This document shows positions 766 through 44,082 of a stretch of 64,000 nt of DNA, piece by piece. The notes under the pieces were generated by a model. The model saw only the letters and a program-made list of their open reading frames with translations. It was not told the DNA's origin and ran no database searches. The stretch is from Bacterioplanoides sp. SCSIO 12839 (lineage in GTDB: Bacteria; Pseudomonadota; Gammaproteobacteria; Pseudomonadales; Oceanobacteraceae): positions 3,746,501 through 3,810,500 of the forward strand of contig NZ_CP073745.1 of NCBI RefSeq assembly GCF_024397975.1, written 5' to 3'. The position numbers were made by a program, and so were the translations under genes. Numbering within the stretch: position 1 is the first letter of the stretch; each line of letters begins with the position of its first letter.

Positions 766-1371
766 ATGAATAAGTCTGAACTGCGCAAGCTGATTCGCCG
801 CAAACGCCGCTCGTTAACTCCACAACAACGCCGTCAGGCAAGCCATGGTCTACTCACCAGTTTGCGTCAGAACGCACGATTCTGTGCGGCACAACGGGTG
901 GCGCTGTATTTAAGCAACGATGGTGAAATTGATACCCAAGGCGTGATTGAAGATCTCTGGCGGCGCGGTAAGCAGGTGTTTTTACCGGTGTTGCATCCGG
1001 TACGCAAAGGTCACTTGAGCTTCATTCGTTATGACAGCAACACCGTGATGCGGAACAATCGCTATGGCATTGCCGAACCGGATTTTCGCCGTGGTAAACG
1101 TGTGAGTGCAAGATACCTGAGCATAGTGTGTTTGCCATTGGTGGCGTTTGACCAGCGCGGCAACCGCCTGGGTATGGGTGGCGGCTACTACGACCGTACA
1201 CTGGCTTTTATGACACAAACGGAGGTAGCAGGTTCGAATGGGCAACAACCTGAGTTAGTTGGCTGTGCTTATGCCTTTCAACAAGTACCACAGTTACCTG
1301 CAGAATCATGGGATATTGGTATCAGTGCCATCGCCACAGACCAAGAATTCCACCCATTTCAGCAAACCTAA
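766..1371 (+). CDS. fau: 5-formyltetrahydrofolate cyclo-ligase
   Basis: 201 residues. It converts 5-formyl-THF to 5,10-methenyl-THF using ATP and clears an inhibitory folate. The N-terminus has the basic ELRKLIRRKRRSLT segment common to the family. The substrate/ATP loop GMGGGYYDRTL is present at about residues 134-144, and the YLSNDGEIDT segment is also typical. It follows 6S RNA, as ygfA does in E. coli. Its last bases overlap the stop codon of the minus-strand small gene at 1368-1493. Confidence 0.93.
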   Translation: MNKSELRKLIRRKRRSLTPQQRRQASHGLLTSLRQNARFCAAQRVALYLSNDGEIDTQGVIEDLWRRGKQVFLPVLHPVRKGHLSFIRYDSNTVMRNNRYGIAEPDFRRGKRVSARYLSIVCLPLVAFDQRGNRLGMGGGYYDRTLAFMTQTEVAGSNGQQPELVGCAYAFQQVPQLPAESWDIGISAIATDQEFHPFQQT

Positions 1372-1493
1372 CGAATACTGCTTTCTGAAGCGATCACCGA
1401 TGACGGCTTTTGTTGTTCTGCGCTCATGCTGGTAATGGTTGCGCCTAATGCTGCAACCAGCGCCAGGATAACCAGTAAGTCTGGCTTTTTCAT
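1368..1493 (-). CDS. Small membrane-anchored or exported protein, 41 residues
   Basis: I do not recognise the family. From ATG at 1493-1491 the minus strand reads 41 codons to TAG at 1370-1368. It begins with two lysines, then a hydrophobic stretch (LLVILALVAALGATI, residues 6-20), then a polar Ser/Gln/Glu-rich tail, so it could be a single-span membrane protein or a short signal-bearing peptide. A strong Shine-Dalgarno (GGGGAAG) lies 7 nt before the ATG, and a perfect 20-bp palindrome sits upstream at 1513-1532; both argue for a real gene. The Shine-Dalgarno is part of a 14-nt stretch complementary to the sRNA candidate at 43136-43262. Its 3' end overlaps fau by 4 bp in convergent orientation. 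Confidence 0.55.
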   Translation of the reverse strand: MKKPDLLVILALVAALGATITSMSAEQQKPSSVIASESSIR

Positions 1494-1512
1494 AATGTAC
1501 TTCCCCAATGTG

Positions 1513-1532
1513 ATGTTCTGAATTCAGAACAT
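1513..1532. promoter_or_regulatory. Perfect 20-bp palindrome upstream of the 41-codon gene
   Basis: ATGTTCTGAATTCAGAACAT is identical to its own reverse complement. It ends 20 bp before the start codon at 1493. It could be an operator for a dimeric regulator, or a hairpin in the 5' leader. It does not fit the LexA (CTGT-N8-ACAG) or CRP consensus. Confidence 0.45.
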
Positions 1533-1735
1533 AAGGCCACGGTTTTTTGATTATTATTCTGCTTCAGCATTCTTGTACGAGTGCATGACGATAAGATGAT
1601 GTTCTTATTTCACCCCGCCGTTTTAGATAAACAGGCTGAGCAAATGCCACACCAACCTCTTTTTAAATGCCCAATAAACCCATGCAATAAGGGTTGCTGA
1701 AGTCCGAGCCCGACGCTTATCGTTATTCTTGTCTG

Positions 1736-23800: not shown

Positions 23801-26569
23801 CTAGTGCGCCTGATCCCAGTTATCGCCAATGCCCGCTTCCACTAACAGAGGCACTTTTAATTCAGCGGCATTTTGCATTTTTTGCTGCAGTTCTGCGGCA
23901 AAAGCTTCCGCCTGATCGTCACGCACTTCCAGAATCAATTCATCGTGTACCTGCATTAACAAACGAGCATCGAAGCCAGATTGCGGTAGCCAATCAGCCA
24001 CCTGAATCATGGCACGTTTAATAATGTCTGCAGCGGTTCCCTGCATCGGCGCGTTAATCGCGGTACGCTCAGCATGTTGGCGGCGCGGCGCATTTTTCGC
24101 CCGGATATCCGGCAGGTATAAACGACGTCCAAAGATGGTTTCGACGTAGCCTTTTTCTTTGGCATTTTCGCGGGTGTTGTCCATATACGCCTGAACCCCC
24201 GGGTAACGCTGGAAGTACAAGTTCACATAGTCCTGTGCCTCGGCACGACCAATACCCAGCTGCTTCGCCAGACCAAAAGCGGACATGCCATAAATCAAAC
24301 CAAAGTTAATCGCTTTGGCGCTGCGACGTTGGTTATCGGTGACGTCTTCTTCACTGACTCCAAACACCTCGGCCGCGGTAGCACAGTGCACGTCACGACC
24401 TTCCTGAAACGCTTTTAATAAACCTTCGTCATCCGACAAGTGCGCCATAATCCGCAGCTCAACCTGGCTGTAGTCCGCTGCAACCAGCTTATAACCTTCA
24501 GGGGCAATAAATGCCTGGCGAATGCGGCGGCCTTCGTCGCTACGAATCGGAATATTCTGCAGGTTGGGATCACTGGAAGATAAACGCCCAGTTGCTGCGA
24601 CCGCCTGATGATAAGAGGTATGCACTCGCCCGGTTTTGGCATTCATCATTAATGGCAGTTTATCGGTATAGGTGCTTTTTAATTTCGCCAGGCCACGATG
24701 TTCAATAATAATGCGCGGTAATTCGAATTCTTCCGCCAATTCCACCAGCACTTCTTCGGCCGTAGACGGCGCACCTTTTGGTGTTTTTTTACGAACGGGC
24801 AATTCCAGCTTTTCAAATAAAATAGCGCCGAGCTGTTTTGGCGAAGCCAGGTTAAACACTTCACCGGCAACATCATGTGCTTGTTGCTCTAACTGCTGTA
24901 ATTTTTGCTCGATCTCACTGCTTTGCTCGTGCAATAAGTCCGCATCAATTAATGCACCCAGCTCTTCCATCTCACACAGAACCGGCATGGCGCCCATTTC
25001 GATGTCGGTAAAGACGGTTTTTAACGAATCGACTTTCTCTAATTTTTTCCACAAGGTCTGATGCAAGCGCAGGGTAATATCCGCGTCTTCAGCGGCATAA
25101 GGCCCGGCGATTTCAACCTCGACCTGATTAAAGGTCTTTTGTTTTGCACCTTTACCAGCAACTTCTTCAAAGCTGATGCACTTATGGCCCAGATATTTCA
25201 GCGCCAGGCTATCCATATCATGGCGAGTAGCGACGGAATTTAAGACATAGGATTCCAGCTGAGTATCAAACGCGACACCTTGTAGTTGAATACCGTGGTT
25301 GGCCAACACGTGCATATCGTATTTCATATGCTGGCCGACTTTTTTCTGGTTGTTATCTTCCAGGATGGGCTTTAACAACGCGAGTACCGCATCGCGTTCC
25401 AACTGCTGTGGTGCGCCTTCGTAATCGTGAGCCAGCGGTACATAAGCGGCTTTGCCTGCTTCTACCGCAAACGAAACACCGACAATTTCTGCGTCTTTAT
25501 AATTGAGTGAGGTAGTTTCGGTATCGAAAGCAAATAAGTCAGACGCTTTTAATTTCTTTAACCAGGTATCTAATTGTGCCTGTTCGAAAATAACCTCGTA
25601 TTCGCCTTCTAATTTGGCGGGCAGGTCATCATCGTCTTCCAATGACTCACTCGCGACAGAAGTCGCAGAACCTGAATCCGCCGTTTTATCAGCATTCCCT
25701 TTTCCGGATAGCTCGGCAATCCAGGCTTTAAATTCCATTTGTTGGAATAAGGTTAATAGCTCATCGTTATTCGCCGGTTCAGCCAATAATTCTGTGATGT
25801 TTTTTTCCAGTGTCACATCACATTTAATAGTGGCTAATTCTTTTGATAAAAACGCCTGCTCTTTATGTTCTTCCAGACGCGGCGCCAAGGTTTTTGCACC
25901 GCGGAAGCTCAGGGTTTTCACCTCGTCGAGGTTGTCGTAAATCGTTTCTAAACTGCCTAACCCGGCCAGCAGACCAACCGCGGTTTTTTCACCCACTTTG
26001 GGCACACCCGGGATGTTATCGACCTTATCACCCATCAACGCCAGGAAGTCGATAATCAGCTCTGGGCCAATGCCAAATTTGGCTTTGACGCCGTCGATAT
26101 CCATAAAGGTATCGGTCATAGTGTTGATCAGAGACACATGTTCGTTCACCAGCTGCGCCATGTCTTTATCGCCGGTGGAAACAATCACATCACGCTTGGC
26201 AGCGGTCGCTTGTGCGGCCAGCGTACCAATCACATCATCCGCTTCCACGCCGTCAATAATTAACAGCGGCAACCCCATGGCATGGATAATATTGTGAATC
26301 GGTGCAATCTGTTCACGCAGCTCTTCCGGCATCGGCGGGCGATTGGCCTTGTACTCAGCATACATATCGTTGCGGAAGGTTTTTCCTTTGGCATCAAACA
26401 CCACCACCACTTCGGATTCTGGGTAATCCTTTTGCAGGCGTTTGATCATGCTGATCACACCTTTAATGGCATTGGTATGCAGACCTTTGGAGTTGGTCAG
26501 CAACGGAATGGCATGAAACGCTCGGAACAGGTAAGAAGAACCATCAACAAGAATAACAGGCTGAGACAT
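23801..26569 (-). CDS. polA: DNA polymerase I
   Basis: 922 residues from ATG 26569 (AAGGAT upstream). Order of domains: 5'-3' exonuclease (residues 1-~290, with VILVDGSSYLFRAFHA and SGDKDMAQLV-type acidic motifs), proofreading exonuclease starting near DTETTSL at ~348, and the polymerase domain with DYSQVELRIMAHLS near 693, the RRSAKAINFGLIYGMS O-helix and QVHDELILEV near 870. The proofreading motif DTET is intact. It fills gaps and removes RNA primers. It is divergent from the DUF2782 gene. Confidence 0.97.
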   Translation of the reverse strand: MSQPVILVDGSSYLFRAFHAIPLLTNSKGLHTNAIKGVISMIKRLQKDYPESEVVVVFDAKGKTFRNDMYAEYKANRPPMPEELREQIAPIHNIIHAMGLPLLIIDGVEADDVIGTLAAQATAAKRDVIVSTGDKDMAQLVNEHVSLINTMTDTFMDIDGVKAKFGIGPELIIDFLALMGDKVDNIPGVPKVGEKTAVGLLAGLGSLETIYDNLDEVKTLSFRGAKTLAPRLEEHKEQAFLSKELATIKCDVTLEKNITELLAEPANNDELLTLFQQMEFKAWIAELSGKGNADKTADSGSATSVASESLEDDDDLPAKLEGEYEVIFEQAQLDTWLKKLKASDLFAFDTETTSLNYKDAEIVGVSFAVEAGKAAYVPLAHDYEGAPQQLERDAVLALLKPILEDNNQKKVGQHMKYDMHVLANHGIQLQGVAFDTQLESYVLNSVATRHDMDSLALKYLGHKCISFEEVAGKGAKQKTFNQVEVEIAGPYAAEDADITLRLHQTLWKKLEKVDSLKTVFTDIEMGAMPVLCEMEELGALIDADLLHEQSSEIEQKLQQLEQQAHDVAGEVFNLASPKQLGAILFEKLELPVRKKTPKGAPSTAEEVLVELAEEFELPRIIIEHRGLAKLKSTYTDKLPLMMNAKTGRVHTSYHQAVAATGRLSSSDPNLQNIPIRSDEGRRIRQAFIAPEGYKLVAADYSQVELRIMAHLSDDEGLLKAFQEGRDVHCATAAEVFGVSEEDVTDNQRRSAKAINFGLIYGMSAFGLAKQLGIGRAEAQDYVNLYFQRYPGVQAYMDNTRENAKEKGYVETIFGRRLYLPDIRAKNAPRRQHAERTAINAPMQGTAADIIKRAMIQVADWLPQSGFDARLLMQVHDELILEVRDDQAEAFAAELQQKMQNAAELKVPLLVEAGIGDNWDQAH

Positions 26570-36345: not shown

Positions 36346-36559
36346 AAGGGTCTTCTTGTAGGAATCATGGTGTGGATAAGTGCCTGAAGGCTAACGACTC
36401 AGGGGATTATCGGCAAGGTGATATCCGGTAATGCAGTGTTCCACTCGGCTGATGCTGTAAAGCGTTCGAGTCAAACCACTGGCCATTGTGAACCTTTCCC
36501 TTCTGCGCCACTCTCACATAGAATGGTGACTTAACGCCGAAGCTTTCCCGTCTAAGTTT

Positions 36560-36688
36560 GGCCTTCACACAACGTTGTGAACCTGAATAAGACGCGTCAG
36601 CCGTGATGGCTCCAGGCATACCGTCTGTCAGCTGCATCACCAGGGTTCTGTGGGAAACCACCGGGCCTCCCGCATTTGGAAAGGTGTA
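36560..36688 (+). promoter_or_regulatory. Molybdenum cofactor (MOCO) riboswitch
   Basis: The 3' part, with CACCAGGG (about 36642-36649), the hairpin TGTGGGAAACCACCGG and then GCCTCCCGCATTTGGAAAGG (36665-36684), matches the MOCO motif before E. coli moaA very closely. The GGAAAGG at 36678-36684 also serves as ribosome site for moaA at 36694, so Moco binding can occlude it. A 12-bp palindrome CACAACGTTGTG (36568-36579) may be the first stem of the aptamer. Sequence 36346-36559 is non-coding leader/promoter without a feature I can name. Confidence 0.85.
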
Positions 36689-36693
36689 GAGAG

Positions 36694-37794
36694 ATGAATT
36701 CATATACCCGGATTCCGCTCACCGAGGTAGACTCGTGCGAGCTGGAACCCTATGGGTCTGTGGCGTCGGTCTTAAGTCCGAGTACTTTTGAGCAACGCGC
36801 AGGCTCCCAGTTAAAAGACTCACAGTTTAAAGACACGCACGGTCGGCGTTTCAGCTACCTGCGCTTGTCGATCACCGATGTTTGCAACTTCCGTTGCAAC
36901 TATTGCCTGCCCGATGGTTACCAGTGTTCGGATAAAACCGAGCCGTTATCGCTGGAAGAGATCCGTCAGCTCGCCAAAACCTTTGCTGCCCATGGCACTC
37001 GTAAGGTTCGCATTACTGGCGGTGAACCGGTATTACGCAAAGATCTGCCGCAAATTATCGCCGCGCTGAAACAAACGCCCGGTATTGAGACCGTTGCGCT
37101 AACCACCAACGGCTATAAGATCAACCAGCATATCGACAGCTGGAAAGCCGCCGGTCTGGATCAGCTGAATGTCAGCATCGACAGCTTAGACCCTAAAGTC
37201 TTTCAGACCATTACCGGCCATGATCGCCTACAGGAAATTCTTCGCGGCATTGATCGTGCGTTTGAGCTGGGGTTTAAAGACGTGAAAGTGAATGCGGTTC
37301 TGCTGAAGAGCCACAATGCTAATGGGCTCAGTAGTTTCCTTAACTGGATTAAATTTACACCAGTCACTTTGCGCTTTATCGAGCTGATGGAAACCGGTCA
37401 AAACCCGGATTATTTCGCTAAAAATCACCTTAGCGGTGAGCAGATTAAACAGCAATTATTGGAGAATGGCTGGCAGCAGAAGATACGCAATAAAGACGCA
37501 GGCCCGGCACAGGAATTCGATCATCCGGATTACCAGGGCAGCATCGGTTTAATTATGCCGTACAGCAAAGACTTCTGTTCCAGCTGTAATCGTTTGCGCA
37601 TTTCTGCACTGGGCAAACTGCATTTATGTCTGTTTGGCGAGCAAGGTTACGACCTGCGCCATTTAATGACTGAAGGAAAACAAGCCGAACTGGAAACGGC
37701 TATTCAGGGATTATTGCAGGATAAAAAAGCGACTCATTTCCTGCATGACGGTCAGACCGGTGCGATTCAGCATTTCGCTCAAATCGGCGGCTGA
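36694..37794 (+). CDS. moaA: GTP 3',8-cyclase MoaA
   Basis: 366 residues from ATG 36694; an in-frame TTG at 36676 would lie inside the riboswitch. The radical-SAM cluster motif CNFRCNYC (Cx3Cx2C) is at about residues 67-74, and GGEPVLRKDL binds SAM. The C-terminal second 4Fe-4S site is shown by FCSSCNRLRIS. MoaA makes 3',8-cyclo-GTP, the first step of Moco synthesis. The first ~45 residues exceed the E. coli protein (329 residues) and look unstructured; the terminal Gly-Gly is present (QIGG). Confidence 0.95.
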   Translation: MNSYTRIPLTEVDSCELEPYGSVASVLSPSTFEQRAGSQLKDSQFKDTHGRRFSYLRLSITDVCNFRCNYCLPDGYQCSDKTEPLSLEEIRQLAKTFAAHGTRKVRITGGEPVLRKDLPQIIAALKQTPGIETVALTTNGYKINQHIDSWKAAGLDQLNVSIDSLDPKVFQTITGHDRLQEILRGIDRAFELGFKDVKVNAVLLKSHNANGLSSFLNWIKFTPVTLRFIELMETGQNPDYFAKNHLSGEQIKQQLLENGWQQKIRNKDAGPAQEFDHPDYQGSIGLIMPYSKDFCSSCNRLRISALGKLHLCLFGEQGYDLRHLMTEGKQAELETAIQGLLQDKKATHFLHDGQTGAIQHFAQIGG

Positions 37795-41213: not shown

Positions 41214-43031
41214 TCAGAACCAATCTGCCTGCATATCCAGACAGGTAGTATCAAAAGAAGTTAACAACTTCGCCTGATGATCAATCTCCGCTAATTCCCA
41301 ACGAATAAAATATTGCGCCGCCTGTAATTTACCGGCGAGGAATTGCTTGTCTTCGTCCGTTTCTGAATCACCAAATGCCTCAATGGCTTTATCGGCCATT
41401 TCTAACCACAACCAGCCAATCACCATTTTGCTCATCAGATCGAGGAAAACAGCCGAATTCGCCAGGGATAATTCCACCTCACCTTTTTGTAACGACTGAC
41501 CTAACGTCATCACGGTTTGCATCAGTGTATTCAGATGTTTCTGATACAGGTCTGCCAACGGTTTTAACGCTTGTTTTTGTTGAGCTGACTTCAGTGTTGT
41601 CTGCACCCGAGCCATTAACAACTGCTGGCCTTTGCCATTGTGTTGCCACAATTTCCGACCTAATAAATCCAGAGACTGAATACCATGGGTACCTTCATGA
41701 ATTGGGTTTAAGCGGTTATCACGGTAGCACTGCTCCACCGGATATTCACGGGTATAACCAGCACCCGCCAATACCTGAATGGCCAGGTCGTTAGCACGCG
41801 GGCCGTAATACGATGGGAACGATTTAACGATTGGCGTTAATAAATCGAGCAGAATGGCGCTGTCTTGTGCTTTGTTTTCATCGGCTTCACCTTCCATTTC
41901 GTCTACCAGACGAGAAGCAAATAAACACAGCGCCAAAGCACCTTCGACATAACTTTTTTGCGCCAGCAACATACGTTTTACATCGGTATGTTCAACAATA
42001 TTAATTGGCTTGCTGTTTGGATCACGATTCGTTGCGCTACGACCCTGTGGACGATTACGGGCGTAATCCAGCGATTCAAGATAACCACGATAGCCAATCA
42101 TGGCGCCACCTAAGCCGACACCAATGCGCGCTTCGTTCATCATCTTAAACATATACGACAGGCCTTTATTGGCTTCGCCAATTAAATAGCCGTGGCAGTT
42201 ATCGCCTTCACCCCTATCTCCTTCGCCAAAGTTCAGCACAGTCGACGTAGTGCCGCGATAACCCATCTTATGTAACAGTCCAGCCAGCTTGACGTCGTTA
42301 CGTTCTGCCAGAGAGCCGTCCGGATTGGTTAAAAACTTCGGCACAATAAACAGCGAAATACCTTTTACCCCGGTTGGAGCTCCTTCAATTCGTGCCAGCA
42401 CTAAATGCACGATATTTTCCGTGATGTCCTGATCGCCACCAGAGATATACATCTTCTGACCTTTAATACGATAACTGCCATCATCCTGAGGAATCGCTTT
42501 GGTAGTCAGATCACCCAGCGATGAGCCGACATCCGGCTCGGTTAACGCCATAGTCCCGGAGAAGCGACCTTCAAACATCGGTGGTAAAAACGTTGCTTTT
42601 TGCTGTTCACTGCCAAAAGCATGAATCACATTTGCGGCAGCGCTGGTTAAAAACGGATAACCTGCGGTCGACGGGTTCGCCGCCATAAAATAAGCGTTAC
42701 AAGCGGCACTAATCAGCGATGGCAACTGCATACCACCATCGGCAAAGCGGTGGCGCGCCGACATAAGCCCGGATTCAGCAAAGTGCTTCCAGGCCTCTTT
42801 TACTTCCGGGATGGTCGTGACTTTTTCGCCATCAAACTGAGGTTCGTGTTCATCGGCTTTGGCGTTATGTGGCAGAAAATAGTTTTCCGCGATTTGTTCG
42901 GAAGTCTTCAGGATGCCGTCAAAGGTGGTGCGATCGTGATCTTGAAAGCGCTCCAGTTCCGTTAGTTGTTCGGCGTTAAACACCTGATACAACAGAAACT
43001 CGAGATCTTTTGGGTTTACCAGCTTAGACAT
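41214..43031 (-). CDS. Acyl-CoA dehydrogenase, large (~600 residue) type with C-terminal extension
   Basis: 605 residues, as in the DmdC/AcdA-like group. FAD-binding segments include MALTEPDVGSSLGDLTTKA and KMYISGGDQDITENIVHLVLARI; the C-terminal four-helix bundle has LAIQVLAGAGYTREYPVEQCYRDNRLNPIHEGTHGIQ with the usual catalytic Glu region, followed by a ~130-residue C-terminal domain. It oxidises acyl-CoA to enoyl-CoA, handing electrons to ETF. It is transcribed into the crotonase gene. Confidence 0.9.
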   Translation of the reverse strand: MSKLVNPKDLEFLLYQVFNAEQLTELERFQDHDRTTFDGILKTSEQIAENYFLPHNAKADEHEPQFDGEKVTTIPEVKEAWKHFAESGLMSARHRFADGGMQLPSLISAACNAYFMAANPSTAGYPFLTSAAANVIHAFGSEQQKATFLPPMFEGRFSGTMALTEPDVGSSLGDLTTKAIPQDDGSYRIKGQKMYISGGDQDITENIVHLVLARIEGAPTGVKGISLFIVPKFLTNPDGSLAERNDVKLAGLLHKMGYRGTTSTVLNFGEGDRGEGDNCHGYLIGEANKGLSYMFKMMNEARIGVGLGGAMIGYRGYLESLDYARNRPQGRSATNRDPNSKPINIVEHTDVKRMLLAQKSYVEGALALCLFASRLVDEMEGEADENKAQDSAILLDLLTPIVKSFPSYYGPRANDLAIQVLAGAGYTREYPVEQCYRDNRLNPIHEGTHGIQSLDLLGRKLWQHNGKGQQLLMARVQTTLKSAQQKQALKPLADLYQKHLNTLMQTVMTLGQSLQKGEVELSLANSAVFLDLMSKMVIGWLWLEMADKAIEAFGDSETDEDKQFLAGKLQAAQYFIRWELAEIDHQAKLLTSFDTTCLDMQADWF

Positions 43032-43135
43032 TTGATTACTCCGACATGACTATTTTTTATTTAGTATCGGACGCAAAGCGGTGAACAAATATTGGCATTA
43101 ATGACTTACTAGGGGCCAAAAGAGACATTCGAGAT

Positions 43136-43262
43136 AAAAAAGACCCGGTAGTCATTGGGGGCAAACTACCGGGTCAACTTCGGATCATTGGGGAAGTACC
43201 GAAGAAAAAGAACTACCTATGGAGAAGTAATGGCCTCTCACCATTCTGTTCCCAGCGGGAAT
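43136..43262 (-). ncRNA. Candidate small regulatory RNA in the Spot 42/ErsA position beside engB
   Basis: On the minus strand a TATAGT box (43274-43269) precedes about 127 nt that fold into hairpins and end in a strong terminator: GACCCGGTAG / CTACCGGGTC (43142-43175) followed by TTTTTT. An earlier hairpin is CTTCGG / CCGAAG (43178-43204), and the 5' end has TTCCC-GCT-GGGAA. The loops of the last two hairpins share the 9-mer CCCCAATGA although their stems are unrelated, as expected for C-rich seeds that bind Shine-Dalgarno regions. Spot 42 (E. coli) and ErsA (Pseudomonas) are encoded beside engB. No good -35 is seen. A 19-codon frame (43185-43244) lies inside. Confidence 0.65.
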
Positions 43263-43360
43263 ACTTTCACTATAGACGCTGATCTGGGTTTTGGGTTCCG
43301 CAGATAAAAAAGTTGATTGTTTTTTACAATCAAGTACCCAGCAACAATAGCGATAGACAT

Positions 43361-43390
43361 AAAAAAAGAGCCAATCGAATGATTGGCTCT
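43361..43390 (-). terminator. Terminator after engB
   Basis: On the minus strand AGAGCCAATC-ATTC-GATTGGCTCT is followed by TTTTTT, 30 bp after the engB stop. It separates engB transcription from the downstream sRNA candidate. Confidence 0.85.
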
Positions 43391-43419
43391 TTCTGATCAG
43401 ACAATAAACAGTGAACGGT

Positions 43420-44082
43420 TTATTCCGGATCGGGTACACCCACGGCTAACTCTTCTTCTGCATCTGTTTCGGGTGGCAATAACCAGCTGTTTAAACGATT
43501 CTTCAGAATCTTCAGGCCATCACCATTATGAGAAGAAAACGTTTGCACCGTGACCAGATCACCGAGGTCTTTTACCGCTTTTTTTACCTGTAGCAAGGTA
43601 TTCTGCGCCGGACCACGCTTCAGTTTGTCTGCCTTGGTGAGCAGGATATGCACAGGCATCTGCTTTTCCCGTGCCCAGTCCAGCATGGAGTTATCAAACT
43701 CTTTCAGCGGGTGACGGATATCCATCAGCAGTACCAAACCGACCAGCACGTCGCGCTTATCGAGGTAGTTGCCCAGCTCTTTTTGCCACTCGTTTTTCTT
43801 GGCAACCGGCACCTTGGCGAAGCCATATCCGGGCAAATCCACCAGGCATAACGGTGTTTCTGCGATCTGGAAGTAGTTAATCAGCTGAGTTCGGCCTGGT
43901 GTTTTACTGGTTCGCGCCAGCTTTTTGTTGCCGGTCAACGTGTTCAATGCACTGGACTTACCAGCGTTAGAACGCCCGGCAAATGCGACTTCCCGCAACA
44001 CATCCATGGGGCATTGATTCAGTTTTGCCGCACTTTTAACGAAGTGTGTATTGGTGTAGGTCAATGATTCTTGATCTAACAT
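43420..44082 (-). CDS. engB: Ribosome biogenesis GTP-binding protein YsxC/EngB
   Basis: 220 residues. GTPase motifs: G1 GRSNAGKSSALNTLTG, G2 region KTPGRTQLINYF, G3 DLPGYG, G4 TKAD and G5 FSSHNGDG. TRAFAC GTPase needed for 50S subunit assembly. It is divergent from the cytochrome c5-c4 operon and is followed by a terminator and the sRNA candidate. The acidic C-terminal tail is short, as in Pseudomonas-type proteins. Confidence 0.95.
   Translation of the reverse strand: MLDQESLTYTNTHFVKSAAKLNQCPMDVLREVAFAGRSNAGKSSALNTLTGNKKLARTSKTPGRTQLINYFQIAETPLCLVDLPGYGFAKVPVAKKNEWQKELGNYLDKRDVLVGLVLLMDIRHPLKEFDNSMLDWAREKQMPVHILLTKADKLKRGPAQNTLLQVKKAVKDLGDLVTVQTFSSHNGDGLKILKNRLNSWLLPPETDAEEELAVGVPDPE

Follow-up and report, generated by a model that had tools for sequence, protein, structure and literature searches.

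A candidate regulatory small RNA with C-rich loops beside engB, most likely a diverged relative of ErsA

Small RNAs of the polA–engB locus and the element in the window

Spot 42 (spf) is encoded beside engB (yihA), and its loops are not known to be C-rich. Its place at the polA locus is one that, as a 2013 report points out, it shares with sX13 of the Xanthomonadaceae and with the alpha-r7 sRNAs of alphaproteobacteria (PMC3771888). According to the same report, sX13 lies downstream of polA and carries stems with CCCC or CCCCC loops that were found experimentally to repress mRNAs having G-rich (GGGG) motifs near their start, with Hfq described as dispensable for this regulation; the alpha-r7 sRNAs have three stem-loops with apical C-rich motifs (PMC3771888). 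For ErsA of Pseudomonas, one paper describes three stem-loops, the first two of them separated by a U-rich unstructured domain (PMC8575079), and another reports binding to Hfq and regulation of the algC, amrZ and oprD mRNAs (PMC8545117). The sX13 report also asked whether polA loci elsewhere encode such sRNAs (PMC3771888). Among the top-ranked open-access matches listed in our literature search, no title or abstract reported the RNA described here or a survey of the kind made here.

The window analyzed here is a 64-kb stretch of a Bacterioplanoides genome in which engB, encoding the YihA/YsxC GTPase, occupies positions 43420-44082 of the minus strand and is followed by its terminator (43363-43394). 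An earlier note on this DNA had proposed that an sRNA gene follows, with a TATAGT box of its own downstream of that terminator, three hairpins and a strong terminator, and that the two 3' hairpins contain the same 9-mer. All of these features were found. The box, which sits inside CTATA[GT]T, is at 43269-43274 (minus strand, as are all features of the locus described in this section), and the proposed RNA of ~127 nt covers 43136-43262; it would start 7 nt past the -10 box and end with the terminator U-run (43136-43142). Its downstream neighbour is an acyl-CoA dehydrogenase gene (41214-43031).

The predicted fold of the 127-nt RNA has an energy of -41 kcal/mol (z -3.09; one of 200 shuffles folds equally well). 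It consists, in order, of a 5' hairpin of six pairs (SL1, 43229-43245), a U-rich single-stranded linker that may be an Hfq site (43204-43215), SL2 (43178-43204), with stem CTTCGG/CCGAAG and loop TACTTCCCCAATGAT, and the terminator hairpin SL3 (43142-43175), whose loop region is TGCCCCCAAT. The window has two copies of the 9-mer CCCCAATGA, one per 3' hairpin: inside the SL2 loop (43185-43193) and in SL3 (43152-43160), where part of it falls in the upper stem. Two or more copies of this 9-mer also arise in 19 of 100 shuffles of the 64 kb, and the repeat by itself was dropped as evidence. Because the pair alone is unremarkable, the weight rests on its placement in neighbouring loops and on the conservation of CCCC in those loops.

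A recognisable -35 element (sigma-70, TTGACA-like) was sought upstream of the TATAGT box and none was found, and a promoter scan of the window does not list this promoter. A simple terminator scan reports the engB terminator alone at the locus; SL3 is missed because its loop exceeds the length that the scan allows. A coding reading, in the form of an 84-aa mechanical open reading frame (43185-43439), was rejected in view of indels among relatives that are not multiples of three and of the covarying stems. The locus combines its own putative promoter, a -10 box with no -35 seen, with a covarying structure and a terminator, the features that characterize an intrinsically terminated trans-acting sRNA. 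Judging from the sequence, we are fairly confident that this is a regulatory sRNA beside engB with its own promoter, whose C-rich loops would pair with G-rich ribosome-binding sites and which would be a diverged relative of the ErsA type.

Conservation and covariation within the family

The family to which the window belongs, the Thalassolituus/Oceanobacter group, was represented by 44 genomes. A DNA search recovered the 3' part of the RNA in 16 of 35 genomes, all 16 of them in this family, and a covariance model of 86 positions (R1) was built from 15 of these loci, the 16th being near-identical in its 3' part. R1 matches 40 of the 44 family genomes with best E-values of at most 7.1e-9 and a single strong copy in each; in six family genomes R1 also hits a second site, weakly (E 2e-4 to 0.007). 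The locus is shared by named genomes of Thalassolituus, Oceanobacter, Bacterioplanes and Parathalassolituus, and an R1 match is absent from G005 (99% complete), G307 (90%, in 690 contigs), G319 (84%) and G320 (80%).

In the alignment of the 40 matches (39 distinct), which was fitted to the R1 model itself, 98.6% of cells are paired, compared with 88.7% in shuffles and 22-50% in slid structures, and changes on both sides are seen in 11 of 16 pairs. On four measures (paired fraction, pairs changed on both sides, cells with such changes and covariation score) none of 500 shuffles equals the observed value; on the fifth, further pair types, 34 of 500 do. The SL2 helix is 99.6% paired and that of SL3 97.9%, with both-sided changes in eight of the ten SL3 pairs. 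RNAalifold, applied to a MAFFT alignment of 15 loci, gives both-sided changes in 5 of 16 pairs. Between genera the two 3' hairpins are conserved, whereas the 5' domain, including SL1, is not.

The loops are the persistent part of the RNA and for this reason are likely to be its seeds. CCCC is found in the SL2 loop of 38 of the 40 family loci, in the SL3 loop of 37 and in both loops of 36. The 8-mer CCCCAATG is common to both loops in 16 loci, and the full 9-mer is rare, being present in both loops of two (L001, which is the window, and L163); among relatives, the shared loop sequence first described for the window holds mostly as CCCC and rarely as the exact 9-mer.

A CTATA[GT]T box is present within 110 nt upstream of the R1 match in 27 of the 39 loci with enough sequence, compared with an expectation of 0.009 per locus (per 120 nt). 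It is missing from all eight loci of genus g4, as well as from G317, G313, G312 and G021. The g4 loci (L159-L167), which all share this lack of the box, are also mixed in the orientation of the RNA, four and four. An AlgU-like GGAAC[CT][CT] spacing, seen in 5 of 27 loci, was set aside as promoter evidence.

The RNA lies between engB and the next gene, SL3 is a terminator, and in most relatives polA and engB are convergent, an arrangement in which terminators are expected. The element could be read on these grounds as an extended terminator or an intergenic insulating structure with no trans-acting role, but we find this improbable. The engB terminator already precedes the -10 box, the box is itself conserved in those 27 of 39 loci, and the RNA is retained where polA has gone. 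Moreover, the C-rich loops are kept while the stems change, although termination needs no such loops, and CCCC loops (C4 loops) are rare in other terminators, with 5 among 485 terminators of family loci away from the RNA. The unannotated sRNA gene at an ErsA-type locus that the earlier note proposed is supported by its occurrence in 40 of 44 genomes, its covarying stems, its persistent C-rich loops and its -10 box, and the comparison with related genomes, in which both loops and terminator are conserved, leaves that proposal standing.

Relatives, gene order and strand

The best Rfam match at the RNA is RF01719 (Pseudomon-1/ErsA), on the same strand and at the same place, with 22.3 bits (E 0.047) against a gathering threshold of 50 bits; the window scan gave no match at the gathering level. 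The two RNAs have in common a gene that adjoins polA or engB (engB in the window), C-rich loops in SL2 and the terminator hairpin, and three stem-loops of which SL1 and SL2 are joined by a U-rich unstructured stretch (for ErsA, PMC8575079). They differ in strand, since ErsA is on the polA strand, convergent with engB, and the window RNA is on the engB strand, and in the letters of the loops, which are CCCCGCCCTAG and CTCCCTCCCCATA in L017. The sX13 family RF02232 has no match to the window RNA in 42900-43500 (its gathering threshold is also 50 bits), and sX13 carries three C-rich loops compared with two here, where the 5' hairpin is without one. The window RNA resembles sX13, as it does ErsA, in its place and its build. 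Among 16 family loci scanned, RF02232 matches four below threshold (22.3-26.1 bits against 50) and RF01719 matches five, with E-values of 0.29-4.8 for the two models in this larger search. Spot 42 (RF00021) has no gathering-level match in the window and none up to E 10 in 42900-43500. Matches to RgsA and STnc430 were dismissed as far under threshold. Of the two known sRNAs to which the earlier note had linked the locus, ErsA stands as the top Rfam match by place, short of its threshold, and Spot 42 is unmatched. The window RNA is most likely a diverged relative of Pseudomonas ErsA that falls outside formal membership of RF01719.

RF01719 matches 26 of 293 genomes of the order at E <=0.01, of which 12 pass the threshold, all in family f21. 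In each of these 12 ErsA loci the RNA adjoins polA and is on the polA strand, and engB is within the 1.5-kb flank in 10. No ErsA sequence went into R1, yet it gives a weak match (E 0.001-0.36) at the position of ErsA in each of the 12, and at E <=0.05 it matches 70 of the 293 genomes. The best-scoring 21 R1 loci outside the family (L086-L106) comprise 13 in the interval from polA to engB, every one of them on the polA strand, and eight away from both genes (L094, L095, L096, L098, L100, L104, L105 and L106). Some of these eight were rejected as plain terminators by their fold, and the RF01719 match G002:C28 (L041) was rejected as a tRNA followed by a terminator. RF01719 matches whose flank lacks both polA and engB (L029, L036, L040, L042, L044 and L045) were left uncounted as syntenic.

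One such match, L029 in G022 (1501-1616, minus strand), is an ErsA-like RNA with 45.8 bits to RF01719 and two C-rich loops. The engB gene of G022 is on a different contig, 80 bases from polA, and the ErsA-type RNA seems to have left the polA/engB locus in family f2. Elsewhere, two or three tandem copies of a C-loop RNA are found beside engB or polA, in G201 (L032/L043), G127 (L033) and G240 (L038); R1 matches three times in L032 and twice in L033, and in L038 a single R1 match adjoins a single RF01719 match.

Within the window's family, 30 of 40 genomes (the window and 29 others) have the RNA on the engB strand and 10 on the polA strand, the latter comprising all six of g6 and four of the eight in g4. 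polA and engB are convergent, with the RNA between them, in the 23 family stretches (of 40) where both genes are seen nearby. In the window, polA (C-terminal part as matched, 23804-25168, minus strand) is on the same strand as engB and ~18 kb from the sRNA, which agrees with the earlier claim that it had been displaced and amends the distance of ~17 kb; that the RNA stayed near engB after polA left is borne out by the synteny of the family loci.

On a tree of engB and polA (48 rows, 39 from the family and 9 from the outgroup, G324 being omitted as too short), orientation requires at least three changes, which are forced by well-supported branches and number 3-3 over bootstraps. None of 500 shuffles requires as few. 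The outgroup does not form one side of a branch, L032 falling within, and the three changes may include flips back. One of them is at the base of a well-supported clade of g1, g2, g3, g7 and g8 that includes the window; for g1 and g8, the fetched stretches (mostly 8 kb on each side) show no polA. It is likely, from this distribution, that the RNA gene of the window's lineage was inverted in place relative to a polA-strand orientation that is itself likely to be ancestral.

A survey by gene place, which is independent of RNA similarity, located engB in 141 of 145 genomes of the order and covered 2.5 kb downstream of engB for the genera outside the family, each represented by one genome (80 of 82), with a CCCC in the loop of a strong terminator as the detector. 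polA was seen in 46 of these stretches, always convergent, and was unseen in 34, whose first 840 bases were scanned; a contig end shortens three of the latter (G037, G177 and G053). The polA strand of the 46 intervals holds 42 terminators, of which 21 have CCCC in the loop and represent 20 genera from 13 families; 26 of the 46 genera have no C4 terminator on that strand by this detector. The engB strand of the same intervals has a CCCC loop in none of seven terminators, and the 34 stretches without polA have one in 4 of 26, both strands included. As background, the remainder of the survey stretches gives 3 of 76 and 60 other family loci give 0 of 145. By Fisher tests, 21/42 differs from the 5/485 of family loci away from the RNA (p 1.5e-21, the groups being unmatched for base composition), from 3/76 (p 5.7e-9) and from the 0/7 of the engB strand (p 0.015). 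In 11 named loci from other groups a C4 loop is found in 5 of 65 terminators, four of the five being Nitrosomonas RNAs beside engB. These Nitrosomonas loci (L068, L069, L070 and L072) have a C4-loop terminator RNA convergent with engB in four of four, and polA was not found downstream, within 1.4 kb for L068 and 5 kb for the other three.

The same procedure was applied to 60 genomes of the class out of 106 candidates. Among the 25 with convergent polA, 12 carry C4 terminators on the polA strand, which make up 13 of the 23 terminators there; for the engB strand of these polA-convergent genomes the count is two of five terminators (G336 and G393). Seven of the 35 class genomes without polA nearby have C4 loops, in 8 of 16 terminators on the engB-convergent strand compared with none of seven on the engB strand. 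Over the class survey as a whole, C4 terminators number 21 of 39 on the convergent strand and 2 of 12 on the engB strand (p 0.044). Several survey folds show three C-rich loops, which is the plan of sX13. A motif chosen after looking at the class loci, TCCCT[GT], occurs within 120 nt ahead of the terminator in 12 of the 21 class genomes, where mononucleotide shuffles predict 2.9; in L249-L307 it is often in the 5' hairpin loop, like a third seed. At the gathering level, Rfam names 2 of 40 scanned C4 loci: two of 20 in the order, both ErsA; the 20 class loci scanned, of 21, gave no sRNA match. In G393, a TwoAYGGAY RNA just above threshold is found downstream of engB (L298, 887-965, plus strand); it is cis-regulatory and away from the RNA locus.

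These surveys suggest that similar, mostly uncatalogued RNAs are encoded at the same place in many other gammaproteobacteria, and the counts (20 of 46 order genera and 12 of 25 class genomes) point to polA-locus sRNAs of the sX13 kind in a large share of genomes. Such RNAs may have arisen several times at a permissive site, having a mode in common with ErsA and sX13 and a separate descent. This alternative concerns descent only and is compatible with the mechanism that we favor; it would account for how little the stems and 5' domains share between families, for the subthreshold fit to RF01719 and for those 26 of 46 genera in which the detector finds no C4 terminator on the polA strand. Nevertheless, repeated origin seems rather unlikely to us, given that all 13 syntenic R1 loci and all 12 ErsA loci have the RNA on the same strand, that R1 and ErsA cross-match at the same positions, and that TCCCT[GT] precedes the terminator more often than expected (a motif, again, picked after looking). 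We give a little less than even weight to the proposition that a single sRNA, common to the class Gammaproteobacteria, had its ancestral place in the polA–engB interval, with loops kept, stems rewritten and a gene that can be flipped in place and yet is kept. If there is one such RNA, sequence searches have split it into ErsA, sX13 and many uncatalogued RNAs. The loci form a set for the study of loop-seeded regulation, stem turnover and gene inversion, with a first testable target in the window genome.

Proposed mode of action and a candidate target

Conservation, covariation, loop persistence, the -10 box, synteny and changes of orientation are read directly from the genomes compared, and the mechanism that we favor builds on them. 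Transcription would begin at the promoter past the engB terminator and yield an RNA of ~127 nt ending at the intrinsic terminator. Two rigid hairpins would expose the C-rich loops UUCCCCAAUG and GCCCCCAAUG as redundant seeds, and these could pair with the GGGG-bearing ribosome-binding sites of mRNAs and block translation, a form of antisense repression. Hfq, whose gene the window genome carries, would probably bind the U-rich linker and the tail, although Hfq is dispensable in sX13. By descent, the RNA would be a diverged, in-place-inverted relative of the polA-strand RNA found between polA and engB elsewhere in the order, of which ErsA is the known example.

Titrating RNAs of the RsmY/Z type carry GGA-loop repeats, and those of the CrcZ type CA-rich repeats. 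The similar loops, occurring more than once, and the U-rich linker are compatible with a sponge too, such that the RNA would titrate a protein or another RNA instead of pairing with mRNAs. However, neither kind of repeat is present in the RNA sequence, two loops are few for titration, and the C-rich loops of sX13 work through G-rich mRNA motifs (PMC3771888); we regard titration as improbable as well.

For pairing with mRNAs, the preferred reading, candidate targets were sought as matches to CATTGGGG located 2-14 nt before an ATG, with the reversed pattern as control. The window genome (G000) has 23 matches (19 distinct sites) compared with 14 for the control, and G001 has 19 compared with 9, a mild excess in both cases. 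One match in the window, CATTGGGGAAGTAC (1497-1510, minus strand), is perfectly complementary to the SL2 loop over 14 nt and covers a ribosome-binding site; it was chosen from the 23 seed matches, and its significance is not clean for that reason. It precedes an open reading frame for a 41-aa hydrophobic small protein (MKKPDLL...ESSIR; 1368-1493, minus strand), which is matched in 41 of 44 family genomes at E <=1, the weakest matches being doubtful. Leaders of this frame were read in 30 loci, with a script-picked start that may be too far upstream in G002, G005 and G016; 27 of the 30 are comparable, three being from genomes without an R1 match. Perfect pairing of at least 11 nt between the leader and its own SL2 loop is found in 3 of the 27 (G000, G001 and G007), and the next best is 8. 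The 41-aa frame would be, at most, a lineage-specific candidate target.

Two other structured RNAs of the window are above their Rfam thresholds, namely 6S RNA at 493-671 and a molybdenum-cofactor riboswitch at 36523-36702, both on the plus strand.
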